From: Microbacterium luteolum
Lineage (GTDB): Bacteria > Actinomycetota > Actinomycetes > Actinomycetales > Microbacteriaceae
Length of the DNA stretch: 64,000 nt
Assembly (NCBI RefSeq): GCF_039533965.1
Contig: NZ_BAAAUN010000001.1
Location: 3,136,950-3,200,949 of the forward strand
Reading direction: 5' to 3'
The stretch's first letter is position 1. The number at the start of each line of letters is the position of its first letter. The notes under the pieces were generated by a model. It ran no database searches. It was not told where the DNA came from and saw only the letters and a program-made list of their open reading frames with translations. A program made the translations under genes and the position numbers. Below are positions 1 to 13,480 of this stretch, in pieces.

Positions 1-513
1 GTGAATGCGCTCGCCGAGTTCCACCCCGCCTGGATCGAGGAGCCGACCAGCCCCGACGACGTGCTCGGTCACGCCGAGATCGCCCGCGGCGTCGCGCCCA
101 TCCGCGTCGCCACAGGTGAGCACGCGCAGAACCGCGTGATCTTCAAGCAGCTGCTCCAGGCCGAGGCGATCTCCGTGATGCAGATCGATGCCGTGCGCGT
201 CGCGGGGGTGAACGAGAACATCGCGAACCTGCTGCTGGCGGCCAAGTTCGGCATCCCGGTCTGCCCGCACGCCGGTGGCGTCGGCCTGTGCGAGGCCGTG
301 CAGCACCTGTCGATGTTCGACTTCGTGGCCGTCACGGGTACCCGCGAGGGCCGGATGATCGAATTCGTCGACCACCTGCACGAGCACTTCGTCGTGCCGA
401 CCGACATCCAGGGCGGCTCGTACATGGCGCCGACCGCGCCCGGCGCCGGCATGGAGATGAAGGCCGACAGCATCGCCACCTACACGTGGACGGGCGCGCA
501 TGTCGGGGTCTGA
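1..513 (+). CDS. fucD: L-fuconate dehydratase, C-terminal part (cut by window start)
   Basis: This is the C-terminal part (about 170 residues) of an enolase-superfamily acid-sugar dehydratase; the usual length is about 430, so the start lies before the window. The family dehydrates L-fuconate to 2-keto-3-deoxy-L-fuconate in the non-phosphorylating fucose pathway. Visible family landmarks are the EEPTSPDD motif (metal-ligand region), the following ATGEHAQN motif carrying another metal-binding Glu, and CPHAGGVGL with the general-acid His. The stop overlaps the next gene, an aldo/keto reductase, by 14 bases, which indicates translational coupling in one operon. The GTG at position 1 is only an internal valine codon. 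L-fuconate is the likeliest substrate by motif resemblance, but other acid sugars cannot be excluded. Confidence 0.85.
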
Positions 514-1474
514 GCGCGCGGCTGCTCTCGAGCTGCCCGCCCTCGGCTACGGGGCCGCGAACGTCGGCAACCTGTTCCGCGCGATGACCGACGACGAGGC
601 CTGGGCCGTCCTGGATGCCGCGTGGGAGAGCGGTATCCGGTACTACGACACCGCCCCGCACTACGGGCTCGGCCTGTCGGAGCGCCGGCTCGGCGCGTTC
701 CTGCAGACCAAGCCCCGTGGTGAGTATGTGCTGTCCACGAAGGTGGGCCGGCTGCTGCGCCCGAACCCGCAGCACGCGGGTGGACTCGACACCGCGAACG
801 ACTTCCACGTGCCCGACGACCTCCAGCGCGTGTGGGACTTCTCGGCCGACGGCATCCGTCGGAGCCTCGACGAGTCGCGCGAACGCCTGGGCATCGAGCG
901 CATCGACCTGCTCTACCTGCACGACCCGGAGCGCCACGATCTGGACCTCGCGCTCGCCGAGGCCTTTCCCGCCATGGAGCAGCTGCGCGCCGAGGGCGAT
1001 GTCACGGCGATCGGCATCGGATCGATGGTGTCGGATGCCCTGGCCGCTGCCGTCCGCTCCGCCGACCTCGACCTCATCATGGTCGCCGGGCGCTACACGC
1101 TGCTCGAGCAGCCCGCCGCCGTCGATGTGCTGCCGGCGTGCCGGGAGCGGGGGACCGGGATCGTCGCGGCATCCGTCTTCAACTCCGGACTGCTCGCCTC
1201 GAACGAGCCGCGCCGTGACGGACGCTACGAGTACGGACAGCTGCCCGACGAGCTGTGGGTGCGGCTGCTGCGGATCGCCGCCGTCTGCGCTGACCACGGC
1301 GTGCCGCTGCCGGCCGCCGCGATCCAGTTTCCGCTGCAGGCTTCGGGAGTGCGCTCGGTCGTGGTGGGCGGGAGTCGTCCTGAGCAGCTGCGCCAGAACG
1401 CCGCCTACGCGGCGCAGGAGATTCCCGAGGAGCTGTGGGAGAACCTCGCCGCCGAGGGGCTCATCGCTGCGTGA
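500..1474 (+). CDS. Aldo/keto reductase, probable L-fucose (D-threo-aldose) 1-dehydrogenase
   Basis: A 324-residue aldo/keto reductase. The catalytic tetrad of the family can be read: Asp and Tyr in [11 protein letters not shown], Lys in LSTKVGR, and His in LLYLHDPE. Members of the D-threo-aldose/L-fucose 1-dehydrogenase group oxidise the sugar to its lactone with NAD(P). The ATG overlaps the end of the fuconate dehydratase gene by 14 bases, so the two are expected to act in one pathway (fucose to fuconolactone, then fuconate, then 2-keto-3-deoxyfuconate). The gene is the last in its operon, followed by a palindromic repeat and the convergent LacI gene. Substrate assignment rests mainly on the neighbour. 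Confidence 0.85.
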
Positions 1475-1498
1475 CGGTGTCGTCGGGCCGGGCTCGAC

Positions 1499-1584
1499 GT
1501 TCACAACTCAGCAAGAACGCACGCAGACCGCCCGAAACCGGGCGGATTCGGACCAGGGTCCGACGATCTTCCTGAACTGTGCAC
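1499..1584. repeat. Family A palindromic repeat, copy 1
   Basis: Imperfect inverted repeat with outer arms 1499-1518 and 1565-1584 (15 of 20 positions pair), enclosing an inner perfect 7-bp hairpin (ccgcccg / cgggcgg). It lies between two convergent genes and may double as a bidirectional terminator. A second, better preserved copy is at 48135-48232. Confidence 0.75.
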
Positions 1585-1609
1585 GCCGTCGACGCGTGAC
1601 GAGAGGTAC

Positions 1610-2611
1610 TCAGCGCCCGATCGTCGACTCGCGCACGATCAGCTCTGCGGGGAACGGGGTCGTGGCGGGCGGTGGAGCCGTCGGGTCGGCCAGCTGCTGC
1701 AGCAGCGCGGCACCGGCGGCGCGCCCGATCTCATAGCCCGGCTGACGCACGCTCGTCAGCGGCACCACGCCCTGGTGCGCCTGGTCGACGTCGTCGAATC
1801 CGACGAGTGCGATCTCCTCGGGAACCCGGATGCCGTGCCGCAGCAGCTGCGTGAGCACGCCGAGCGCCACCATGTCGTTCGCGGCGAAGACAGCATCGGG
1901 GCGCTCACCGGCGGGCAGGACGATGAGCTGTTCGGCGGCGCGCAGCCCGTCCTCGGTCGCGAGATGCGGCACGTTCTGCACCGTGATCGTGGCTGAGGTC
2001 CCGGCGACCGCGTCGCGGAGCCCGGCCAGACGGTCGTTCGACTGGCTGACGGCGGGACTGCCGAGGAACAGGATGCGCGTGCGTCCGAGCGACAGCAGAT
2101 GCTCGCCGGCGAGACGCCCGCCGCCGCGGTCGTCGAACAGCACGGATGCGACCGTGGGCGAGTCGCGGATGGGGCCGACGACCACCGAGCGGATGCCGCG
2201 CTCGGCCAGGAGCTCGAGACGCGGCACCACGTCGCCGAGCGGGTAGATCACGATGCCCTGCACGCGGTGCGCCTCGAACATGTCGATGTTGCGTCGCTCC
2301 TGCGCGTCGTCGCGGTTGCTGTTGCTGAAGAACAGCGACCAGCCGCCCTCGCGCGTCACGTCGTCCACACCGCGGGACAGCTCGTTGAAGTAGGGCAGCC
2401 ACGCGTCGAGCAGGATCAGGGCGAGCGCCTTGCTCGACCCTGCGCGCAGCTGTCGCGCCGACTCGTTCGGCACGAAGCCGAGCTGCTCGATGGCCGCCCG
2501 CACGCGTTCGCGGCTCGACGTGCCGAGCACGTGCGGGTGGTTGAGGTAGTTCGACACGGTCGAGGACGAGACCCCGGCGAGAGCGGCGACGTCTTTGACG
2601 CTCGCGGGCAT
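1610..2611 (-). CDS. LacI-family transcriptional regulator
   Basis: A 333-residue LacI/GalR regulator. The N-terminal helix-turn-helix and hinge are clear (VKDVAALAGVSSSTVSNYLN, residues 5-24), followed by a periplasmic-binding-protein-like sugar-sensing domain ending in the typical SVRQPGYEIG region. It is divergent from the ketose 3-epimerase gene at 2810. The intergenic DNA carries two identical 15-bp copies of ttgcaacgtgccaag around a promoter, which fits binding by this protein. The inducer is unknown; by context it is a sugar handled by the epimerase and the CUT2 transporter downstream. Confidence 0.92.
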   Translation of the reverse strand: MPASVKDVAALAGVSSSTVSNYLNHPHVLGTSSRERVRAAIEQLGFVPNESARQLRAGSSKALALILLDAWLPYFNELSRGVDDVTREGGWSLFFSNSNRDDAQERRNIDMFEAHRVQGIVIYPLGDVVPRLELLAERGIRSVVVGPIRDSPTVASVLFDDRGGGRLAGEHLLSLGRTRILFLGSPAVSQSNDRLAGLRDAVAGTSATITVQNVPHLATEDGLRAAEQLIVLPAGERPDAVFAANDMVALGVLTQLLRHGIRVPEEIALVGFDDVDQAHQGVVPLTSVRQPGYEIGRAAGAALLQQLADPTAPPPATTPFPAELIVRESTIGR

Positions 2612-2686
2612 GGAGGCTCCTCGTCGGGATGGGGCCGCCGGCGGGACGCGCCGGGCGGACGTGGCGACACCAGGCTAGCGGGAGAA

Positions 2687-2767
2687 TTGCAACGTGCCAA
2701 GAAAGTTCTTGACTCCGCACCTCCCGCGGACGTAGCGTGTCTGGCACGCCACTTGCAACGTGCCAAG
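2687..2767 (+). promoter_or_regulatory. Promoter of the epimerase gene flanked by two LacI-type operators
   Basis: Two exact copies of ttgcaacgtgccaag lie at 2687-2701 and 2753-2767, 66 bp apart. Each extends to an imperfect palindrome with central ACGT. Between them is a promoter-like pair: ttgact at 2709-2714 and tagcgt at 2733-2738 (18-bp spacer). One operator abuts the -35 box and the other follows the start region, an arrangement suited to repression by looping by the divergent LacI protein. Confidence 0.7.
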
Positions 2768-2809
2768 TGGCGAGGCGACGGTGCCGAACACCCGCCTGCG
2801 AGAGGCCCC

Positions 2810-3679
2810 ATGAACATCGGCTGCCACGGGCTCGTCTGGACAGGGAACTTCGATGCCGACGGCATCCGCCTCGCTGTGGAGAAGACGAAGGCGGCGGGCT
2901 TCGATCTCATCGAGTTCCCGCTCATGGATCCGTTCTCGTTCGACGTGGCGGCCGCGAAGGACGCCCTCGAGGAGCACGACCTCGCGGTGAGCGCATCGCT
3001 CGGGCTGTCCGAGGCGACCGACGTGACGAGTGCCGATCCTGCGATCGTCGCGGCGGGCGAAGCGCTGTTGCTCCGCGCGGTGGACGTGCTCGCCGAGCTG
3101 GGCGGCGAGCACTTCTGCGGAGTGATCTACAGCGCCATGAAGAAGTACATGGAGCCCGTGACGCCCGGAGGGCTCGCGAGCAGTCGCGCCGCCATCGCGC
3201 GGGTCGCCGACCACGCCGCCGAGCGGGGAGTGTCGGTGTCGCTCGAGGTCGTCAACCGCTACGAGACCAACGTGCTGAACACGGCCAGGCAGGCGCTCGG
3301 CTACCTGGCGGCGGTCGACCGGCCGAACGTCGGGATCCACCTCGACACGTACCACATGAACATCGAGGAGTCGGATATGTTCGCGCCGGTCCTCGACGCC
3401 GCTCCCGCCCTGCGCTACGTGCACATCGGCGAGAGCCACCGGGGCTACCTCGGCACCGGGACGGTCGACTTCGACACGTTCTTCAAGGCGCTCGGCCGTA
3501 TCGGCTACGACGGGCCGATCGTCTTCGAGTCGTTCTCGTCCGCCGTCGTCGCCCCGGACCTCAGTCGGATGCTCGGCATCTGGCGGAACCTCTGGACCGA
3601 CAACGACGAACTCGGCGCGCACGCCAACGCGTACATCCGCGACAAGCTCGTCGCGATCGAGTCGATCCGGTTGCACTGA
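2810..3679 (+). CDS. Ketose 3-epimerase (D-tagatose/D-psicose 3-epimerase family)
   Basis: A 289-residue TIM-barrel sugar-phosphate-isomerase-like epimerase (AP-endonuclease-2 superfamily). The four metal ligands of the tagatose/psicose 3-epimerases can be placed at Glu146 (SLEVVNRYETN), Asp179 (HLDTYHMN), His205 (HIGESHRG) and Glu240 (VFESFS). These enzymes invert C3 of free ketoses such as fructose, tagatose or ribulose. The frame is open far upstream, but the ATG at 2810 gives the family's normal N-terminus and lies just after the operators. It is transcribed away from the LacI gene and towards the CUT2 transporter genes. Substrate is not determined by the sequence. Confidence 0.85.
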   Translation: MNIGCHGLVWTGNFDADGIRLAVEKTKAAGFDLIEFPLMDPFSFDVAAAKDALEEHDLAVSASLGLSEATDVTSADPAIVAAGEALLLRAVDVLAELGGEHFCGVIYSAMKKYMEPVTPGGLASSRAAIARVADHAAERGVSVSLEVVNRYETNVLNTARQALGYLAAVDRPNVGIHLDTYHMNIEESDMFAPVLDAAPALRYVHIGESHRGYLGTGTVDFDTFFKALGRIGYDGPIVFESFSSAVVAPDLSRMLGIWRNLWTDNDELGAHANAYIRDKLVAIESIRLH

Positions 3680-3713
3680 GGCGCGAGCCGAAGTTCCGGT
3701 GCCGGGAAGGTCA

Positions 3714-3729
3714 AGATGTTATTACAGGC
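3714..3729. promoter_or_regulatory. Operator-like site related to the tandem sites at 13283-13323
   Basis: The site reads agatgt-tatt-acaggc; on the other strand gcctgtaataacatct. It matches the acctgt-NNNN-acaggt consensus seen upstream of the minus-strand operon at 13247 (five of six bases in one half, four of six in the other). It is in the leader region of the CUT2 transporter operon, about 140 bp before its first start codon. Confidence 0.4.
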
Positions 3730-3787
3730 CTTCCCCATCCGACCTCCGTTAGATACATTCAGATACAACTTGCGCGAAAGAGGCGCA

Positions 3788-3820
3788 GGCCGCAGAATTG
3801 ATCCGATGTTTACTGCGGCC
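3788..3820. repeat. Inverted repeat in the leader of the CUT2 operon
   Basis: Perfect 8-bp arms ggccgcag (3788-3795) and ctgcggcc (3813-3820) separated by 17 bp. Just upstream, agataca occurs twice in tandem with a 10-bp period (3751-3767). The 3680-3867 interval therefore looks regulatory, and could hold a second promoter for the transporter. No T-tract follows, so a terminator is less likely than a protein-binding site or an mRNA hairpin. Confidence 0.5.
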
Positions 3821-3867
3821 CGCATCGCCGGAACCGCAACATGACCTTCAAGGAAGCAGGTGAGCAC

Positions 3868-5370
3868 ATGAGTGACCCCATTCTCCGAGTGGAGGGGATC
3901 AGCAAGGGATTCCCCGGTGTGCAGGCGCTGAAAGACGTGCACCTGGAGGTGCGTGCCGGCGAGGTGCTGGTGCTGGTGGGAGAGAACGGCGCCGGGAAGT
4001 CGACGCTGATGAAGATCCTGTCCGGGATCTACACCAAGGACGAGGGAACCATCACGTTCGAGGGCCAGGAGGTGGAGCTCACCAGCCCGCTGCAGGCCCA
4101 GGAACTCGGCATCACGATCATCCATCAGGAGCTCAACCTGATGCCCGACCTGACCGTCGCGCAGAACATCTTCGTAGGCCGTGAGCCGACTTCCGGGCCG
4201 TTCCTGTCCGAGCGGAAGCTCAACACGCAGACCGCGGAGCTGCTGAAGCGCCTCGGCATCCGCCTCGACCCGCGTCAGCTCGTCGGCGAGCTGACCGTCG
4301 CCGAGCAGCAGATGGTCGAGATCGCCAAGGCGCTGTCGTTCAACGCCAAGGTCCTCATCATGGACGAGCCGACGTCGGCCCTCACCGACACCGAGGTCGA
4401 GACGCTGTTCGTGCTGATCGAGCAGCTCAAGGCGTCGGGCACCGGCATCGTGTACATCTCGCACCGCATGGACGAGCTCCGCCGTCTCGCCGACCGGGTC
4501 ACCGTTCTCCGCGACGGCACATACATCGGATCACTCGACCGCGCAGAGGTCACGATCCCCACCATCATCGAGATGATGGTGGGCCGCGTGATCGACGAGG
4601 GCACGCGTCCCGAAGCCCGCGAGCACATCAACGATCCGATCGTCCTCGACGTGCAGGGTCTCTCCACGAGGAACCTGCTCAAGGACGTGTCGTTCCAGCT
4701 GCACAAGGGCGAGATCCTCGGCTTCGCCGGTCTCATGGGCGCCGGCCGCACCGAGACGGCGCGGGCCGTCATCGGCGCCGATCACCGCGACGGCGGCACG
4801 ATCTCGATCAGCGGACGCCCGGTGCGCATCGGCCAGCCGGCGGATGCCGTGAAGCACGGCCTCGGCTATCTCTCGGAGGACCGGAAGCTGCTCGGGCTCA
4901 TGCTCGAGCAGGATGTCACGTTCAACACGGTCCTCGCCTCGCTCGGCTCCTATGCCAACGGCATCGGCTGGATGGGCGACAGCAAGGCGAAGAACCGCAC
5001 CAAGGAGTACGTGCAGCAGCTGCGGGTGAAGACGCCATCGGTCAACCAGGTCGTCAAGCTCCTCTCCGGAGGGAACCAGCAGAAGATCGTCATCGCGCGA
5101 TGGCTGATGCGCGACTGCGACATCCTCATCTTCGACGAGCCGACCCGCGGCATCGACGTCGGCGCGAAGGAAGAGATCTACCGCCTGATGCAGCAGCTCG
5201 CTGACCAGGGCAAGTCCATCATCGTCATCTCATCGGAGCTCCCGGAGATCCTCCGCGTCGCGAACCGCATCGCGGTCTTCGCGAACGGCCGCATCACCGG
5301 AACGCTCCGCAACGAGGAAGCCAGCCAGGAGAAGATCATGCAACTCGCAGCCCACGGGGAGGAAGACTGA
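3868..5370 (+). CDS. Sugar ABC transporter ATP-binding protein (CUT2, RbsA type)
   Basis: About 500 residues with two fused ABC domains, typical of RbsA/XylG/MglA ATPases that energise monosaccharide import. Domain 1 has Walker A GENGAGKST (residues 38-46), signature LTVAEQQM, and Walker B LIMDEPTSAL. Domain 2 has a degenerate Walker A (GLMGAGRTE) and a canonical LSGGNQQK signature, as usual for this family. I chose the ATG at 3868 because it is preceded by an AGGT-type ribosome site and gives the family N-terminus; an in-frame ATG at 3841 would add nine residues. Its stop overlaps the permease start by one base. Confidence 0.92.
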   Translation: MSDPILRVEGISKGFPGVQALKDVHLEVRAGEVLVLVGENGAGKSTLMKILSGIYTKDEGTITFEGQEVELTSPLQAQELGITIIHQELNLMPDLTVAQNIFVGREPTSGPFLSERKLNTQTAELLKRLGIRLDPRQLVGELTVAEQQMVEIAKALSFNAKVLIMDEPTSALTDTEVETLFVLIEQLKASGTGIVYISHRMDELRRLADRVTVLRDGTYIGSLDRAEVTIPTIIEMMVGRVIDEGTRPEAREHINDPIVLDVQGLSTRNLLKDVSFQLHKGEILGFAGLMGAGRTETARAVIGADHRDGGTISISGRPVRIGQPADAVKHGLGYLSEDRKLLGLMLEQDVTFNTVLASLGSYANGIGWMGDSKAKNRTKEYVQQLRVKTPSVNQVVKLLSGGNQQKIVIARWLMRDCDILIFDEPTRGIDVGAKEEIYRLMQQLADQGKSIIVISSELPEILRVANRIAVFANGRITGTLRNEEASQEKIMQLAAHGEED

Positions 5371-6404
5371 TGAGCACCCCACAGCAGCCCGGATCGTCGA
5401 CGACGACGATCATCCAGACGGCGGTGAACGAGGACACCGACAAGCGCGACGTCGGCGCGTTCCTCAAGCGCCAGCTCCAGCAGTCGCTGGCGTTCGGCAC
5501 CCTCATCGTCCTGGTGATCTTCTTCACGATCGCCAGCCCGAACTTCTTCACCTTCAGCAACATCGCCACGGTCCTCCTCTCGACCGCGGTCATCGGCATC
5601 CTGGCCCTCGGCACCACCTTCGTCATCATCACCGGAGGCATCGACCTCTCGATCGGCACCGGCATGGCGCTCTGCGCCGTGATGACGGGTGTGTTCGTGA
5701 CCAACATGGGCCTCCCGGTCTGGGTCGGCGTGATCGGCGGCGTGCTGACCGGTGTGCTGATGGGTCTGGTGAACGGCGTGAACATCACGTTCCTGCGCCT
5801 GCCTCCGTTCATCGCCACGCTCGCGATGATGATGATCGCCGGCGGTCTCGCACTCGTCATCTCGAACGTCTCGCCGATCTACTTCTCCACCTCGGCACCG
5901 GACTTCAAGAAGATCGCGCTCGGCGTGATCATCCCCGGCATCCCGAACGCCGTGCTGATCACCGCGGTGGTCGCGATCATCGCGTGGCTGGTGCTGTCGA
6001 AGACGCTCCTCGGCCGCTACACCTTCGCGATCGGCTCCAACGAAGAGGCCACGCGCCTGTCCGGCGTCAACACCCGCCGCTGGACGATCCTCATCTACAT
6101 GTTCGCCGGAGCCTTCACCGGCATCGCGGGCATCGTGATCGCCGCCCGCCTCGACTCGGCCCAGCCCCAGATCGGCATGGGGTACGAGCTGCAGGCGATC
6201 GCCGCGGTCATCATCGGCGGCACCTCGCTGCTCGGCGGACGCGGATCCATCCTCGGCACCGTGATCGGCGCGCTGATCATGAGCGTGCTCGTCAACGGCC
6301 TGCGCATCCTGTCGATCCAGCCCGAATGGCAGAACATCGTCGTCGGCGTCGTCGTGCTGCTGGCCGTGTTCCTCGACTCGCTGCGCAACCGCCAGCGGAC
6401 CTGA
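5370..6404 (+). CDS. Sugar ABC transporter permease (CUT2, RbsC type)
   Basis: A 344-residue polytopic membrane protein. After a hydrophilic N-terminus of about 35 residues there are some eight to ten hydrophobic segments, with the family motif GGIDLSIGTGMAL and, near the end, IIGGTSLLGGRGSILGTVIGALIM. It forms the membrane channel with the ATPase encoded immediately before; the genes overlap at TGATG. An 85-base gap containing a short GC-rich hairpin (about 6449-6464) separates it from the binding-protein gene, which may help give the binding protein higher expression. Confidence 0.92.
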   Translation: MSTPQQPGSSTTTIIQTAVNEDTDKRDVGAFLKRQLQQSLAFGTLIVLVIFFTIASPNFFTFSNIATVLLSTAVIGILALGTTFVIITGGIDLSIGTGMALCAVMTGVFVTNMGLPVWVGVIGGVLTGVLMGLVNGVNITFLRLPPFIATLAMMMIAGGLALVISNVSPIYFSTSAPDFKKIALGVIIPGIPNAVLITAVVAIIAWLVLSKTLLGRYTFAIGSNEEATRLSGVNTRRWTILIYMFAGAFTGIAGIVIAARLDSAQPQIGMGYELQAIAAVIIGGTSLLGGRGSILGTVIGALIMSVLVNGLRILSIQPEWQNIVVGVVVLLAVFLDSLRNRQRT

Positions 6405-6489: not shown

Positions 6490-7491
6490 ATGAAATTCGG
6501 CAAGAAGACCGCATTCGCGGCACTCGTGGCAGCATCCGCGCTGGTGTTCGCCGGCTGCGCCGGCGGCGGAGACGTGATCGAAGAAGGCAGCGGCGGAGGC
6601 AGCGGCAGCGGCGACGGCGAGATGTACATCGCCCTCGTCTCGAAGGGCTTCCAGCACCAGTTCTGGCAGGCCGTGAAGAAGGGCGCGGAGCAGAAGGCGG
6701 AAGAGCTCGGCGTCAAGATCACGTTCGAAGGCCCTGCGGCCGAGACCGAGATCGCCGGCCAGCTCGAGATGCTGACGGCCGCCATCGACAAGAACCCGGA
6801 TGCCATCGCCTACGCGGCGCTGGACCCCGAGGCCTGTGTCGCCCCGCTCGAGCAGGCGAAGTCGAAGGACATCCCTGTCGTCTACTTCGACGCTCCCTGC
6901 AACGGCGACGTCGGGCTCAGCCTCTCCGCGACCGACAGCAAGGTCGCCGGTGCGCTCGCCGCAGAGCACATGGCCGACCTGATCGGCGGCAAGGGCGAGG
7001 TCGCGATCGTCGGCCACTCGCAGATCAACTCGACCGGTGTCGAGCGTCGCGACGGCTTCGTCGAGAAGATGGAAGCCGACTACCCCGACGTCAAGATCGT
7101 CGACATCCAGTACGGCGACGGCGACCACCTGAAGTCGGCCGACATCGCGAAGACGCTGATCGCGGCGCACCCCGACCTCAAGGGCATCTACGGCACGAAC
7201 GAGGGTTCGGCCATCGGCGTCGTGAACGCCGTGAACGAGCTCGGCCTGGAGAAGGGCAAGATCACGATCGTCGGCTTCGACTCCGGCGCAGCGCAGATCA
7301 ACGCCATCAAGGACGGCACCATGGCCGGCGCCATCACGCAGGACCCGATCGGCATCGGCGAGCAGGTCGTGCAGGCCGCATACGACGCGGCCAACGGCAA
7401 GAAGGTCGACGAGTTCTACGACACCGGCTCCTACTGGTACGACAAGACCAACATCGAAGACCCGAAGATCGCCGCAGTCCTCTACGAGTGA
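6490..7491 (+). CDS. Sugar-binding lipoprotein of the CUT2 transporter
   Basis: A 333-residue periplasmic-binding-protein-like lipoprotein. The signal peptide ends in the lipobox FAGC with Cys23, followed by a Gly/Ser-rich linker and a ribose-type substrate-binding domain (VSKGFQHQFWQAVKKGAEQKA at the start of the domain). It captures the substrate outside the membrane and delivers it to the permease encoded upstream. The operon ends with the terminator at 7511-7534. The ligand is not defined by the sequence; by context it is a sugar or cyclitol handled by the ketose 3-epimerase or by the minus-strand operon at 8273-13247. Confidence 0.9.
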   Translation: MKFGKKTAFAALVAASALVFAGCAGGGDVIEEGSGGGSGSGDGEMYIALVSKGFQHQFWQAVKKGAEQKAEELGVKITFEGPAAETEIAGQLEMLTAAIDKNPDAIAYAALDPEACVAPLEQAKSKDIPVVYFDAPCNGDVGLSLSATDSKVAGALAAEHMADLIGGKGEVAIVGHSQINSTGVERRDGFVEKMEADYPDVKIVDIQYGDGDHLKSADIAKTLIAAHPDLKGIYGTNEGSAIGVVNAVNELGLEKGKITIVGFDSGAAQINAIKDGTMAGAITQDPIGIGEQVVQAAYDAANGKKVDEFYDTGSYWYDKTNIEDPKIAAVLYE

Positions 7492-8272: not shown

Positions 8273-9241
8273 TCACGCCGAGAGCGTGAGCAGGCGCGCG
8301 GGGTTGGCGACCAGCATCCGGTCGACGGCATCGTCGCCGATCAGCGCGCGGAGACGCGGGACGTAGCGCTCGCCGAGGTAGCCGAGGCCGGGCATGCCGC
8401 CGTAGGCGAGGTAGCGGGTGCGCCGGGCGACGTCTCCGCCGAGCACCACGCGATCGCCCGCTCCGCGCTCGACGACGGATGCGGTCAGCGCCAGCAGCTC
8501 GGCATCGGACCGCGTGCGCGGCCGCGCGAAGCCGTCGTACCCGAGGTAGGCGCCTCGTTCGGCGAGGGAGACGTGCAGCCCCGGATCCGGATCGCGATCG
8601 GCGTGCGCGAGAACCACACGATCGGATGCCACGCCTTCGGCCGCGAGCAGGTCGAGGACCTCGTGGGCCGCGGTGCAGAACTCCAGGTGCACCATCACCG
8701 GCGCGCCCGTGCGGCGATGCGCGACGGCCACGGCCAGGAGGGTGGCCTGCTCGAAGGGGCTGATGCGCCAGTAGTCGACGCCGCCCTTCAGCAGTCCCGC
8801 CCGGACGGGGGCACCGCCCGGCCCCGCCGCGCGAGGCGCGTCCGCCGTCTCGAGCACGTCCTCGTCGGCAGCCGGCATCCCGTGCGAGATGTCGGCGACG
8901 AACAGGGCTCCCAGACGGTCGACGTCCCAGACCTGCATCGGGTGATCGGCGCCGTAGTGCGCCTCGCGATGCCGGCCGGTGGTCGCGACGATGTGCAGGC
9001 CGGACGCCGCGCTGATCCGGGCGACCGCCGCGGGGTCGCGCGCGAGGCCGAACGGCGTGGCATCCACCATCGACTCGAAGCCGCTCGCCCTCAGCAGGCT
9101 CGCCTCCGCACCGGACGCGGTCTCGTCGTCGAGCTCGTCGCGGGGGAGCAGGGGCGAGACCTGGAACAGGTGCTCGTGGTAGTCCACCCGCCCGAGCGCG
9201 GCCGGCTCGATGTCGCCGAGCACCGTCCGCACGACCGGCAT
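8273..9241 (-). CDS. Phosphotriesterase-family metal-dependent hydrolase, probable lactonase
   Basis: A 322-residue amidohydrolase-fold protein of the phosphotriesterase family. All expected metal ligands are visible: HEH (His22, His24), a Lys in AGLLKGG that would be carboxylated, His in VMVHLEF, His in VVLAHADRD, and Asp in VLGGDVAR. Characterised relatives are often sugar-lactone or phospho-furanose lactonases, so lactone hydrolysis is the best guess. The ATG shares one base with the stop of the upstream shikimate-dehydrogenase-like gene (TGATG). The frame stays open further upstream, but that part is a shadow of the neighbouring gene. It is the last gene of the five-gene operon. Confidence 0.85.
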   Translation of the reverse strand: MPVVRTVLGDIEPAALGRVDYHEHLFQVSPLLPRDELDDETASGAEASLLRASGFESMVDATPFGLARDPAAVARISAASGLHIVATTGRHREAHYGADHPMQVWDVDRLGALFVADISHGMPAADEDVLETADAPRAAGPGGAPVRAGLLKGGVDYWRISPFEQATLLAVAVAHRRTGAPVMVHLEFCTAAHEVLDLLAAEGVASDRVVLAHADRDPDPGLHVSLAERGAYLGYDGFARPRTRSDAELLALTASVVERGAGDRVVLGGDVARRTRYLAYGGMPGLGYLGERYVPRLRALIGDDAVDRMLVANPARLLTLSA

Positions 9242-10200
9242 CAGCGCACCGACTCCGCCGCCTCGGCGAGCCGCTCGACAGTGTCGGGGGTGAGATCGAG
9301 CTCGAACACGTCGGCCACGACCTGCGACCAGCCGTGGATGAAGTACCGCCAGCCGTCGACGACGTGCAGCGACCGGGCGGCCTCCTGCGCCCGGGCCTGG
9401 TGCAGGAACTCGAGCGACCCGCGGTAGTTGAACTCCCAGGCGTAGGCATCCTCGGGGAACACGACGGCATCGGTCAGGGGCGAGCCGGGCCGGTCCTTGC
9501 CGAGTCCCGTGGCGTTCGCGATGACCGATCCCGGGGGAGCGGCGGCCACGACCGCGTCTGCCTCCGAGGGTGTCGCCGTGACGACGTAGTCGATCAATCC
9601 TTCGCGCGAGCCGTGCTGGCGGTGCACCTCGCGCAGGTGATCGAGCTTCTCCTGCGACCGGGCGGTCACCGTGATGCGGGCGGGAGCGTCGACGCGCTCC
9701 GCAAGGGCCCAGCTGAGCGCCGTGCCCGACCCGCCCGCGCCGAGGATGACGATCTCGGCACCCGTGCGGGCGAAATGGTCGCCCGGGAGGAAATCGTTCA
9801 GCGCGAGATCGACCGTGATCGGATCCTTTGCGCGCCCCGACAGCAGCGGCCCGCGCTTCGAGATGCTCGAGATCTCGGCGCACGACACCGCGAACGGATC
9901 GAGCTCGTCGAACAGCTCGGATGCCGCGGCGTACACGTTCATCTTGTGCGTGGTCACCAGGGCGCCGCGATGGTGCGGGTCGTCGCGGATCTGCTCGACC
10001 ATCGCGCGGTACTGCGCCGGCGTCGCATCCATCGGCAGGTCATGGCCGATCAGCGTGCGGGTCGGCAGGCCGAGGATATCGGCCCACAGCGGGAACACCT
10101 TCATGATCGACGACGACGCCGTCGTCACGCCGACGAAGCCCATGTAGTCGGCCTGCGTCGTCGGGTCGGCGAGCGGATCGGTGGTGAGGGACGCGGTCAT
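9241..10200 (-). CDS. Shikimate/quinate-dehydrogenase-like oxidoreductase
   Basis: A 319-residue protein with the AroE layout: N-terminal substrate domain, then a Rossmann NAD(P) domain with GAGGSG at about 154-159. The catalytic Lys-Asp pair of AroE appears conserved as Lys86 (LVTTHK) and Asp126 (SGRAKD). The Ser-containing carboxylate-binding loop of AroE has a counterpart in TTASSS. The rest of the pocket is unlike AroE: the usual GxNTDxxG motif reads GRAKDPITV. A cyclic or lactone-like polyol acid other than shikimate is therefore likely, matching its place in a sugar-type operon. An aggaga ribosome site overlaps the stop of the preceding dehydrogenase gene. Confidence 0.8.
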   Translation of the reverse strand: MTASLTTDPLADPTTQADYMGFVGVTTASSSIMKVFPLWADILGLPTRTLIGHDLPMDATPAQYRAMVEQIRDDPHHRGALVTTHKMNVYAAASELFDELDPFAVSCAEISSISKRGPLLSGRAKDPITVDLALNDFLPGDHFARTGAEIVILGAGGSGTALSWALAERVDAPARITVTARSQEKLDHLREVHRQHGSREGLIDYVVTATPSEADAVVAAAPPGSVIANATGLGKDRPGSPLTDAVVFPEDAYAWEFNYRGSLEFLHQARAQEAARSLHVVDGWRYFIHGWSQVVADVFELDLTPDTVERLAEAAESVR

Positions 10201-10210
10201 CGGGAGTCTC

Positions 10211-11164
10211 CTAGCGGGCGGTCACGGGATGGGCGGGCTCTTCGCCCCGGAGAACGGCGAGCGCGTCGGCGAGCGAGATCGAACCCATGTTGTCGACGGC
10301 CTGCGTGGTCTGTGCGCCGAGATGCGGTGTCACGATCACGCGGTCCGCGAGGGCCGGGTCCAGCAGTGGGCTGCCCTGCGCCGCGGTGTCGCCGTCGAGG
10401 GTGTCGGCCGCGTAGCCGGCGAGGATGCCGTCACGCAGGGCCTCCGCGATCGCGGCCTCGTCGACGAGGTCGCCGCGGGCGGTGTTCACCAGCACGGTGC
10501 CTCGACGCATGTGGGCGAGCCGTCCGGCGTCGACGAGCAACTGACCGCCCGGAGCGTGCAGCGTGATCACGTCCGCGACGCGGAACAGCTCGTCGAGGTC
10601 GATCGGCTCGGCGCCGTTCGATCGGATCACGTCGGCCGAGAGGTACGGGTCGGCGGCGACGACGCGCGGACCGAATCCGCTCAGGCGCTTCGCCACGCCC
10701 TGACCGATGCGGCCGAAGCCGACGATCCCGACGACGGCGGCGCCCAGCTCGCGTCCGCGCCGCACGCTCCAGTCACCGACGCGCACCCGGCGGTCGCCGT
10801 CCGGCACGAAACGGAGCGCGGCCAGCATCAGGCCGACCGCGTGGTCGGCGACGGCATCCGCATTGGCGCCGGGGGTGTTGGTGACCGGGATGCCGCGGCG
10901 ACGGGCCGCCTCCAGATCGACGGCCTCGGTGCCGACGCCGTAGCGGGCGACGATCCGGAGCTTCGGCGCCGCCTCGAGGTGCTCGTCGGTGATCGCTCCG
11001 GTGCCCGCGATCCAGGCGTCGGCGCCATGCAGCAGCGGTCGGAGCTCGGCGAAGTCGTGGTGAGCGGGACCGCGCAGGATCCGGTGTCCGGCCTGTGCCG
11101 CGCGGCCGACGAGGTCGAGGTCGCCGTCCGAGAAGGAGCGGCTGGTGACGAGGATCACGCCCAT
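10211..11164 (-). CDS. D-isomer-specific 2-hydroxyacid dehydrogenase
   Basis: A 317-residue NAD-dependent D-2-hydroxyacid dehydrogenase (phosphoglycerate-dehydrogenase-like). The nucleotide motif GFGRIG is at 149-154, the catalytic Arg at 230 (NTARGDLVD) and the catalytic His at 281 (TPHLGAQTT). The third catalytic residue, normally Glu in DVFxxEP, aligns with an Asp (DTLDGDT, about residue 259), a conservative but unusual change. It would interconvert a 2-keto acid and a D-2-hydroxy acid; the substrate is unknown. The start shares a base with the stop of the kinase gene, so it is translationally coupled in the operon. Confidence 0.85.
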   Translation of the reverse strand: MGVILVTSRSFSDGDLDLVGRAAQAGHRILRGPAHHDFAELRPLLHGADAWIAGTGAITDEHLEAAPKLRIVARYGVGTEAVDLEAARRRGIPVTNTPGANADAVADHAVGLMLAALRFVPDGDRRVRVGDWSVRRGRELGAAVVGIVGFGRIGQGVAKRLSGFGPRVVAADPYLSADVIRSNGAEPIDLDELFRVADVITLHAPGGQLLVDAGRLAHMRRGTVLVNTARGDLVDEAAIAEALRDGILAGYAADTLDGDTAAQGSPLLDPALADRVIVTPHLGAQTTQAVDNMGSISLADALAVLRGEEPAHPVTAR

Positions 11165-12654
11165 CAGCTCGGCCGTCCTGCGAACCAGGGGGCGAGTGCG
11201 GTGTAGGCGTCGGTGAACCGGGCGTGGCGCTCGGCGTACACCGCGTGGCGCCCGGCATCCGGGGTGAATTCGGCCGTCACCTCGCTGAGGGCGCGGGCTG
11301 CCGAGAAGTCGGCGAGGCCCAGGCCCACCGCACCCGTGACTGCGGCGCCGAGGCTGTTGGCCTCTTCCACGATCGTGCGCCGCCGCACCGGGACACCCCA
11401 CACGTCGGCGAGGACCGAGAGGTAGACGTCGCTCTGCGCGCCGCCGCCGACCGCGTCGATGCGGTCGATCGCGGCGCCCGATTCCCGGAACGCCTGGATG
11501 CAGGTGAGCAGGTTGAACGCGGTGCCCTCGAGCACCGCGCGCATCAGGTGCGCCCTGGTGTGGTGGCGTGCGAGGCCGACGAAGGCGCCGCGGGCGTCGG
11601 GGTCCCAGAGCGGGGAGCGCTCGCCGAGCAGGTACGGCAGGAAGTAGAGGTCGTCGGTGTCGATGTCGTCCGCCGCCTCGGCGATGAGCCGTCCGGTCTC
11701 GGGGTGCGCGGGGTCGGGGGAGAGGGCCTCGGCGATCCACTGCACGGATGCTCCGCCGGCCTGCATCGTGGCGGTCGGGACGAACGATCCCGGCACGACG
11801 TTGTCGAACGTGAAGGTGCGCATCGCGGGGTCGTGCAGTGGCGCATCGGCCGCGAACGAGATCCACGACGAGGTGCCGAGGCAGACGTACGCGCCGTCCT
11901 CGGGCGCGACCACGCCCGAGCCCACGGCGGCGAGCGGGCCGTCGCCGCCGCCCATCACCACGGGAACGCCTGCGGGCAGGCCGAGCGCGTCGGCGGCAGC
12001 ATCCATCAATCCGCCCGCGATGTCGGTCGACTCGAGGATCTCGGGGAAGAGGGCCGGGTCGAGGCGCGCGGCCTGCAGCACTTCGTCCGACCAGGTGCCG
12101 GAGCGCTGGTCGTAGGCGTTCGTGCCGGAGGCGTCGGAGCGATCGGTCGCCAGGCGTCCGGTGAGCCGCAGCACGATGAAGTCCTTCGCCACGCAGACGC
12201 GGCGCACGCGCGACCAGGTGTCGGGCTCGTTGTCGCGCACCCACATGACCTTCTCGAGGGAGTAGGTCGGGTTGAGGCGGTGTCCGAGGATCTCGTAGGC
12301 GTGCTCCGCGCCGAGGGCCGCCTCGAGTTCGCGCTGCTGGGCGCCCGCTCGTGTGTCGGCCCAGATGATCGCCGGGCGCGTGGGTTCGCCATCGGCGTCG
12401 AGCAGCACGGCGCCCATCATCTGCCCGCTCACGACGAGGCCGGCGATGTCGGCCGGGGCCGTCTCGGTGCGCGCGAGCAGGTCGCGGGTCGCGGCGACGA
12501 CCGCGTTCCACCAGTCGGCCGGATCCTGCTCGGCGATCCCGCCCGCGGCGAAGTGCGCCGGGTACGGCACGGTGACAGCCGCGACCAATCGTCCGTCGTC
12601 GTGGTGGAGCGACGCCTTGTCGCCGGTGGTCCCCAGATCGTGCGCGATGAGCAT
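11164..12654 (-). CDS. FGGY-family carbohydrate kinase (xylulokinase-like)
   Basis: A 496-residue FGGY kinase with both actin-like domains. Phosphate-binding loop 1 is DLGTTGDKAS (residues 6-15) and the C-terminal domain includes GGGAQSDVYLSVLADVWG and a final ATP-site stretch. EQDPADWWNAV and the substrate-loop [12 protein letters not shown] are typical of the xylulokinase branch. It is expected to phosphorylate a ketose, polyol or keto-acid intermediate. It is distinct from the xylB at 53298 and araB at 49049, so a dedicated substrate is likely. It lies between the cupin isomerase gene and the 2-hydroxyacid dehydrogenase gene in the same operon. Confidence 0.85.
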   Translation of the reverse strand: MLIAHDLGTTGDKASLHHDDGRLVAAVTVPYPAHFAAGGIAEQDPADWWNAVVAATRDLLARTETAPADIAGLVVSGQMMGAVLLDADGEPTRPAIIWADTRAGAQQRELEAALGAEHAYEILGHRLNPTYSLEKVMWVRDNEPDTWSRVRRVCVAKDFIVLRLTGRLATDRSDASGTNAYDQRSGTWSDEVLQAARLDPALFPEILESTDIAGGLMDAAADALGLPAGVPVVMGGGDGPLAAVGSGVVAPEDGAYVCLGTSSWISFAADAPLHDPAMRTFTFDNVVPGSFVPTATMQAGGASVQWIAEALSPDPAHPETGRLIAEAADDIDTDDLYFLPYLLGERSPLWDPDARGAFVGLARHHTRAHLMRAVLEGTAFNLLTCIQAFRESGAAIDRIDAVGGGAQSDVYLSVLADVWGVPVRRRTIVEEANSLGAAVTGAVGLGLADFSAARALSEVTAEFTPDAGRHAVYAERHARFTDAYTALAPWFAGRPS

Positions 12655-12662
12655 GGCGGACC

Positions 12663-13247
12663 CTATCCGGCGTACGGGCGCAGGTCGACGCCGTCGGTGC
12701 CGGCAGCCGCCCGGTAGGCGCGCGAGCCCATACCGTGCTCGAGCACCCAGCCGTAGTCGTGGCCGGCGCCGCCCGGGTAGACCGCGAGGAACGCGTAGGG
12801 CTCGTCGCCCGTGTTGACCGAGCGGTGTGCCCAGCCCGGTGGGATGTAGCCGATCGTGCCCGGGAGCATGTCGAGCCATTCGGTGCGCTCGCCGTCGAAC
12901 ATGAGCAGTCCGCCGCGGCCCTTCAGCGCGAGGTAGATCTCGCCCTGGTGGTTCGGATGCTGGTGCCCCTTGGTCATCCACAGCTCGCCCGACGTGTCGC
13001 CCGGCATGATCGTGGTGATCGACTGGGGGAGCTCGCGGTCGACCTCGGGGACGGGGGAGCTCACGACGGTGTAGACGACGGGGTTGTCTCCCGCGGATGC
13101 TGCGGCCCAGGCGTCGGCGTCGAGGAAGAGCCCTTCGAGGTCCGACATCCGCCGGGTGAGGGTCGGCCCTTCGGGGGAGAGGGTCAGCTTCTCGGCATCG
13201 AAGGCGATCGCCATCGGAGAGAGCGGCGGGGTGTGGAACTCGGGCAT
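12663..13247 (-). CDS. Cupin-type glucose-6-phosphate isomerase family protein
   Basis: A 194-residue cupin closely resembling the archaeal-type phosphoglucose isomerases. The metal motif of that family is intact: MTKGHQHPNHQGEIY gives His95, His97 and Glu103, and IPPGWAHRSVNTG gives His141, followed by the diagnostic YPGGAGHDYG. It would interconvert an aldose and a ketose, either as 6-phosphates or as a related sugar. A second PGI dedicated to an operon suggests a non-glycolytic substrate. The start at 13247 follows a gaggag ribosome site. It is the first gene of the minus-strand operon and is preceded by tandem operator palindromes at 13283-13323. Confidence 0.85.
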   Translation of the reverse strand: MPEFHTPPLSPMAIAFDAEKLTLSPEGPTLTRRMSDLEGLFLDADAWAAASAGDNPVVYTVVSSPVPEVDRELPQSITTIMPGDTSGELWMTKGHQHPNHQGEIYLALKGRGGLLMFDGERTEWLDMLPGTIGYIPPGWAHRSVNTGDEPYAFLAVYPGGAGHDYGWVLEHGMGSRAYRAAAGTDGVDLRPYAG

Positions 13248-13282: not shown

Positions 13283-13323
13283 AACCTGTAATGACAAGTT
13301 GAGTGTACCTGTGATGACAGGTT
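13283..13323 (-). promoter_or_regulatory. Tandem palindromic operators upstream of the cupin-kinase operon
   Basis: Two sites 23 bp apart centre-to-centre. The downstream one, acctgtgatgacaggt (13307-13322), is a perfect 6-bp inverted repeat with a 4-bp spacer. The other, 13283-13300, reads aacctgt-aatg-acaagtt with one mismatch. They lie 36-76 bp before the first start codon of the operon. A dimeric regulator, perhaps of GntR type, is expected, but none is encoded directly beside them. Confidence 0.7.
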
Positions 13324-13380
13324 CGCGTCCAGGGCATGCTGCGCATCCGCGCGGCGAGCGGTGCTCGCGAGTGCGGCCTC

Positions 13381-13444
13381 GGTCGTTGAGCGAGCGCAGC
13401 GAGCGTTGTACTGAGCGAGCGGAGCGAGTCGAAGTGACGAAACG
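13381..13444. repeat. Family C repeat, copy 1 (64 bp)
   Basis: A 64-bp element beginning ggtcgttgagcgagcgcag and containing several inverted gcgagcg/cgctcgc units. It is 63 of 64 bases identical to the reverse complement of 18072-18135. It sits in the interval between the minus-strand operon leader and the CGNR gene. Confidence 0.85.
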
Positions 13445-13480
13445 CAGCGAGGAGCTCGGTGAGGTGGAGCGGCGGCCGCG

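Follow-up and report, generated by a model that had tools for sequence, protein, structure and literature searches.

The Entner–Doudoroff pathway (kinase, Pgi, Zwf, Pgl, Edd and Eda) combines phosphorylation, aldose–ketose isomerization, C1 oxidation and lactone hydrolysis with cleavage by a 2-keto-3-deoxy-6-phosphogluconate (KDPG)-type aldolase. A 64,000-nucleotide stretch of the Microbacterium luteolum genome (contig NZ_BAAAUN010000001.1, positions 3,136,950 to 3,200,949; the window) contains a five-gene operon for which we propose a similar series of reactions. The middle-step enzymes of the operon belong to other families, a D-isomer 2-hydroxyacid dehydrogenase (HADH) stands in the place of Edd, and the genome yielded no Edd.

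Other described systems share single elements with the operon. The L-fucose-type oxidative pathway (aldose dehydrogenase, lactonase and dehydratase) likewise relies on a dehydrogenase and a lactonase, and its probable genes are found nearby, but it proceeds through free sugar acids, includes a dehydratase and has neither an FGGY kinase nor a cupin isomerase. Phospho-furanose lactonases (NF045706) presumably include 3pnz, the best solved relative of the phosphotriesterase (PTE)-like hydrolase of the operon, although this hydrolase reaches 99.8 bits on NF045706, far under the cut-off of 630. The 5-ketofructose reductases (7cok and 7col) are sugar-acting enzymes with a shikimate dehydrogenase fold, and a profile of the AroE-like family, to which the operon's fourth protein belongs, finds its best PDB match in 7cok (E 1.2e-11); identity is nonetheless about 18%, and structurally the AroE-like protein is no closer to these reductases than to shikimate dehydrogenases.

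The operon and its candidate GntR regulon

The sequence-only reading of this stretch had recognized a coupled five-gene operon, and the genes are indeed genuine, tightly coupled and all on the minus strand. They encode a cupin-type phosphoglucose isomerase (cPGI)-like protein (PF06560; 12663..13247), an XylB-like FGGY sugar kinase (11164..12654), the HADH (10211..11164), an AroE-like dehydrogenase of a separate family (9241..10200) and the PTE-like hydrolase (8273..9241). The cupin was assigned through Pfam and PDB matches, the kinase through its TIGR01312 score and a motif comparison, and the HADH through a family match and residue alignment.

Two operator-like sites on the minus strand precede the operon: CTTGTCATTACAGG at 13285..13298, 37 bp before the cPGI start, and CCTGTCATCACAGG at 13308..13321. 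The palindrome CYTGTNNNNACARG occurs at five places in the 4.14-Mb genome, and two of these are the sites before the operon. A third is 45 bp upstream of where a KDPG aldolase gene starts (C1:3112475). A fourth sits in the promoter from which ribokinase-like and transaldolase-family genes diverge (C1:3131622); behind the ribokinase-like gene come genes for a D-ribose pyranase and a GntR-UTRA protein. The fifth is on contig C2, 15 bp upstream of the gene for a DkgA-like aldo/keto reductase. The aldolase, regulator and reductase genes with the shared operator lie outside the window, and the system is probably larger than five genes.

Relatives show the same association. A GntR-UTRA regulator gene lies directly upstream of cPGI in many loci, as judged by open reading frame (ORF) clustering and Pfam, and the M. 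luteolum GntR-UTRA protein is 46–61% identical to 23 of the 25 GntR proteins of the clusters (40% and 37% for the other two). A palindrome-type site stands between GntR and cPGI in 6 of the 11 loci where the two genes are directly adjacent. Elsewhere in relatives, the site precedes the DkgA-like gene in six genomes and the aldolase gene in five, occupies the ribokinase/transaldolase promoter in the one stretch taken there, and falls between epimerase and ABC transporter ATPase genes in one Microbacterium and one Cryobacterium genome. Among 19 site-bearing stretches, hand-picked with AT-rich cores favoured so that the rate is a biased one, 15 carry a known regulon gene and four (L151, L161, L165 and L166) carry none. 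In L151 (G028:C3), an exact copy of the operator at position 1249 lies about 100 bp before a short-chain dehydrogenase/reductase (SDR)-family gene that is not otherwise in the regulon.

With the tighter pattern CYTGTNATNACARG, searched in 58 genomes, at least two sites are present in each of the seven genomes whose AroE-like gene is close (identity of 81% or more). None of the other 51 genomes reaches two, and two of them have a single site each. The operon's own sites are included in the seven-of-seven count, and G021 has just those two. By a hand calculation that treats the genomes as independent, which they are not truly, the chance of finding all seven among the nine positive genomes is about 1e-7. 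The linkage of the operator to regulon genes is conserved among relatives, and we regard the regulon as the most solid new result. We give about even odds (a probability near 0.5) to a single reading in which the operon is the core of the regulon of the GntR-UTRA regulator, which would bind the candidate sites, and in which its products follow the Entner–Doudoroff-like layout set out below.

Conservation of the gene set

Named genomes were scanned with an alignment of 14 AroE-like proteins, and the best 80 loci of at least 563 confirmed relatives were compared; being top-scoring, they are biased towards close relatives. Counting any match at E 1e-8 within up to 10 kb of flank, some of which are paralogues, cPGI is present in 68 loci, FGGY in 73, HADH in 68, the PTE-like hydrolase in 57 and a lactonase of either fold (PTE-like or the hydrolase described below) in 70. 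All five families occur together in 49 of the 80, and isomerase, kinase, dehydrogenase and lactonase of either fold in 59; the order of the window, on one strand and within 8 kb, is found in 25. The association also holds for the 57 loci beyond the close Microbacterium set (cPGI 46, FGGY 51, HADH 46, either lactonase 47, all five 27). By comparison, 20 control stretches of 20 kb each, 17 of them from the same genus, gave a single match to HADH and none to cPGI, FGGY or PTE.

The loci span Microbacterium, other Actinobacteria, Alphaproteobacteria, Chloroflexi, Planctomycetota and a Spartobacteria metagenome-assembled genome, among others. Gene order varies between phyla, which argues that selection, rather than mere descent, holds the genes together. 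Conserved co-occurrence of the five families, which the sequence-only reading had set as its test, is therefore borne out, and its description of a sugar-type catabolic operon outside any named pathway is supported: none of the literature matches listed deals with a pathway built from these enzymes.

Gene clusters around these loci were built from mechanical gene calls with one member per cluster typed by Pfam, so that cluster counts are approximate. On this basis a KDPG/KHG-type aldolase occurs in 27 of the 80 loci, often between the HADH and AroE-like genes. The M. luteolum aldolase behind the operator scores 183.1 bits on TIGR01182 (cut-off 156.05) and is 63% identical to the aldolase of an Arthrobacter cluster. 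The aldolases of the loci form two groups, 51–64% and 29–34% identical to it, and K131, E42 and T71 are kept in all 13 aligned sequences (11 from loci and two from the M. luteolum genome). Edd itself was rejected as a partner of the aldolase, because both PF00920 (Edd/IlvD-family) hits in the genome, scanned as stretches of 323 and 327 amino acids, score far higher as IlvD-type.

Enzyme families and a candidate pathway

The cupin scores 69.6 bits on PF06560 (cut-off 20.7), and its best PDB matches are archaeal-type glucose-6-phosphate isomerases (E 3.2e-41 over 146 residues). Its metal motif is kept, with HxH, Glu and His aligning to the solved isomerases, and the phosphoglucose isomerase pattern is retained. 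The kinase passes the xylulokinase model TIGR01312 (395.2 bits, cut-off 380.25) and has QMMG and GGGDG where E. coli XylB has QMHG and GGGDN. In the HADH, Arg and His are kept in all 41 aligned rows, and Asp replaces Glu in the window protein. Some loci pair the AroE-like gene with another FGGY kinase subtype, marked by a QSLG or HSLG motif (L079, L083, L100, L103, L104, L106 and L109), and in several of these seven a DeoC/LacD-type aldolase gene adjoins the kinase; they are a possible module for a related substrate.

The AroE-like protein has the AroE fold and reaches 29.7 bits on TIGR00507, against a cut-off of 200.2. On this model two further M. luteolum genes reach 142.5 and 139.4, also under the cut-off, which is passed in 9 of 14 control genomes. 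Since these two better AroE matches exist elsewhere in the genome, we rejected the idea that the AroE-like protein is the housekeeping shikimate dehydrogenase. The family is large (7,874 of 7,994 scored candidates at E 1e-10 or better), and many of the 120 matches listed carry the source name shikimate dehydrogenase. A catalytic Asp and a Lys are kept in all 66 aligned members; the Lys, Lys86, is invariant, although the automatic alignment set E. coli K65 four residues past it. At the positions of E. coli AroE N59 and N86, which we take to be substrate residues, all 66 members have Leu and Ser, so that the family is not a typical shikimate dehydrogenase. The AroE-like genes of loci L068, L072 and L076, from Spongiactinospora and Kibdelosporangium, are 53–59% identical.

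A second locus of the same genome, L116 (G000:C1:3441500-3461000; 892-3505, 3548-5047 and 9469-11243), holds an AroE-like paralogue (48%) whose gene overlaps one for a metallo-beta-lactamase (MBL)-fold hydrolase, together with a PF06560 cupin, an RpiR-type regulator, a zinc alcohol dehydrogenase and a glycerol kinase; it is perhaps a sister pathway for another sugar.

The PTE-like hydrolase matches 3pnz, presumably the phospho-furanose lactonase Lmo2620, with 139.5 bits, and the two have in common the metal ligands and the stretch GDxARxTxYxxYGxxPGLxY after the catalytic Asp. In alignments to 3pnz and E. coli php, the metal ligands and the C-terminal motif are present. From these sequence features we propose that the enzyme is a phospho-sugar lactonase. 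An unrelated MBL-fold hydrolase, typed by Pfam from one representative, is found in 14 of the 80 loci, and 13 of these lack a PTE-like match. None of the 14 alphaproteobacterial loci has a PTE-like match, and 11 of them have the MBL-fold gene, mostly straight after HADH. An MBL paralogue of the M. luteolum genome weakly matches UlaG, the ascorbate-6-phosphate lactonase, in the PDB (23.9 bits). That two unrelated hydrolases, both with lactonase relatives, fill one slot argues for a lactone-opening step.

These families suggest the following route. A ribose-type ABC transporter would import the sugar, the FGGY kinase would phosphorylate a ketose, and the cPGI-like cupin would turn the ketose phosphate into an aldose phosphate. 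The AroE-like enzyme, as a sugar-phosphate 1-dehydrogenase, would oxidize C1 of the ring form, giving a lactone phosphate that the PTE-like enzyme (the MBL-fold hydrolase in other bacteria) would open. The HADH would then oxidize C2 to give a 2-keto acid phosphate, and the KDPG-type aldolase, about 33 kb off behind the same operator, would cleave it. Phosphorylation probably comes first, because the PTE-like enzyme is nearest to 3pnz, with the shared stretch, and the cupin matches glucose-6-phosphate isomerases.

Canonical KDPG aldolases require a 3-deoxy substrate. If the aldolase of the regulon behaves likewise, its 2-keto acid has no C3 hydroxyl, and as no enzyme found here removes such a group, the imported sugar would itself be without one. 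3-Deoxyglucosone forms when sugars react with amines, 3-deoxyfructose is its reduction product and would suit every step, and the DkgA family acts on 2-oxoaldehydes. Tentatively, and with the odds against this particular substrate, the regulon might therefore salvage a 3-deoxy sugar, for example from 3-deoxyglucosone. The DkgA-like reductase would turn a 2-oxoaldehyde such as 3-deoxyglucosone into 3-deoxyfructose, the FGGY kinase would phosphorylate this, and the cPGI-like cupin would yield 3-deoxyglucose 6-phosphate. The AroE-like enzyme would make the lactone, the PTE-like enzyme would release 3-deoxygluconate 6-phosphate, and the HADH would oxidize C2 directly to KDPG, to be cleaved to pyruvate and glyceraldehyde 3-phosphate. 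Such a scheme, doubtful as it is, would use seven enzymes once each and need no dehydratase.

Alternative substrates and neighbouring genes

Several observations weigh against the regulon and pathway as we read them. The reversed control pattern occurs at 7 places in the genome, versus 5 for the loose palindrome, so that it is the positions of the sites, not their number, that are unusual. Three genes behind the shared operator, for the ribokinase, the pyranase and the transaldolase, find no place in the scheme and also count against a 3-deoxy substrate, and in the M. luteolum genome the aldolase gene is outside the operon. In 10 of 23 close Microbacterium loci, what matches the cupin is another, divergent gene (34–36% identity); the AroE-like gene lacks any partner in the DNA available for L068, L072 (a 6.7-kb contig) and L076, and L104 (a 3.1-kb contig) and L106 have no lactonase or HADH match. 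At the level of chemistry, we know of no precedent for C1 oxidation by an AroE-fold enzyme, and the score of the PTE-like protein on NF045706 is low. Polyol dehydrogenase genes in the alphaproteobacterial loci speak against a 3-deoxy substrate, as does the PF01261 epimerase beside the transporter, which suggests a substrate with a C3 hydroxyl, an odd one for a KDPG aldolase.

The last two points lead to a different account, in which the same enzymes in the same order act on an ordinary rare ketose or hexitol with a C3 hydroxyl, such as D-psicose, D-tagatose or D-altritol. The ketose-3-epimerase-like gene beside the transporter belongs to a cluster with members in 32 loci, of which 10 lie beyond the close Microbacterium set, and SDR and iron-dependent alcohol dehydrogenase genes of polyol dehydrogenase type adjoin the kinase in alphaproteobacterial loci. 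One alphaproteobacterial binding protein resembles 4ry9 (E 3.8e-118; 60% identity over 97 aligned residues), presumably a D-talitol complex; a single-sequence structure prediction of an alphaproteobacterial binding protein is poor (pLDDT 47.4). An unusual KDPG-family aldolase would then have to cleave the 2-keto-aldonate phosphate to hydroxypyruvate and glyceraldehyde 3-phosphate, or reduction would give a C2 epimer feeding the pentose phosphate pathway. The 3-deoxy requirement of canonical KDPG aldolases tells against this, and neither a glycerate kinase nor a hydroxypyruvate isomerase was among the 20 representatives scanned from a larger set of recurrent clusters. We consider an ordinary C3-hydroxyl substrate possible, if unlikely.

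The match to 7cok raises the prospect of a diketo-sugar pathway, for example for 5-keto-D-fructose, in which the AroE-like and DkgA-like enzymes would both reduce the 5-keto group before phosphorylation and isomerization. PMC7954740 describes both shikimate-dehydrogenase-like and 2,5-diketogluconate-reductase-like classes of 5-ketofructose reductase, and the regulon holds enzymes of both kinds. Such a route nevertheless seems improbable to us. The sequence-only reading had the PTE-like enzyme opening a lactone, sugar acid or cyclitol, with oxidation by the AroE-like enzyme preceding phosphorylation and isomerization. The AroE fold does work on carbocycles (shikimate and quinate), and a zinc alcohol dehydrogenase in some relatives matches the scyllo-inosose dehydrogenase IolM below threshold (210.5 versus 450 bits). 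That order fares poorly against the likeness of the PTE-like enzyme to 3pnz, with their common motif, and the phosphoglucose isomerase pattern of the cupin, both of which favour early phosphorylation; moreover, the acid produced by ring opening would be unsuited to a ketose kinase followed by a phospho-sugar isomerase. We hold this scheme, too, to be quite unlikely.

The candidate transporter lies on the plus strand of the window and comprises an RbsA/MglA-type sugar ABC transporter ATPase (3841..5370), a permease (5370..6404) and a sugar-binding protein (6490..7491), with the ketose 3-epimerase-like TIM barrel (PF01261; 2801..3679, plus strand), whose part in the pathway is uncertain, upstream. 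Between the epimerase and ATPase genes is a degenerate operator site with two mismatches (3715..3728), which weakly ties the transporter to the regulon; the relative G001 has a full site in the same interval. PDB matches of the window binding protein are uninformative (best 4kqc, 165.1 bits).

Also beside the transporter (window 500-1474 and L117:13163-17463) are genes of the aldo/keto reductase, amidohydrolase, SDR, FAH-type and enolase-type dehydratase families, presumably the L-fucose-type oxidative pathway; in other genera, relatives of several of these genes are again found near the AroE-like cluster. A GC-rich stretch with repeated GAGCGAGCG-like words (13380-13460) separates the operon promoter from a CGNR-type regulator gene.

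For a gene set kept across several phyla, the regulon reading supplies a definite reaction scheme, a candidate operator and a regulator, and it makes the question of the substrate testable. If correct, it would describe an Entner–Doudoroff-type route in which a dehydrogenase replaces the dehydratase, would give a function to a large AroE-like protein family, and may show bacterial use of a sugar-damage product.

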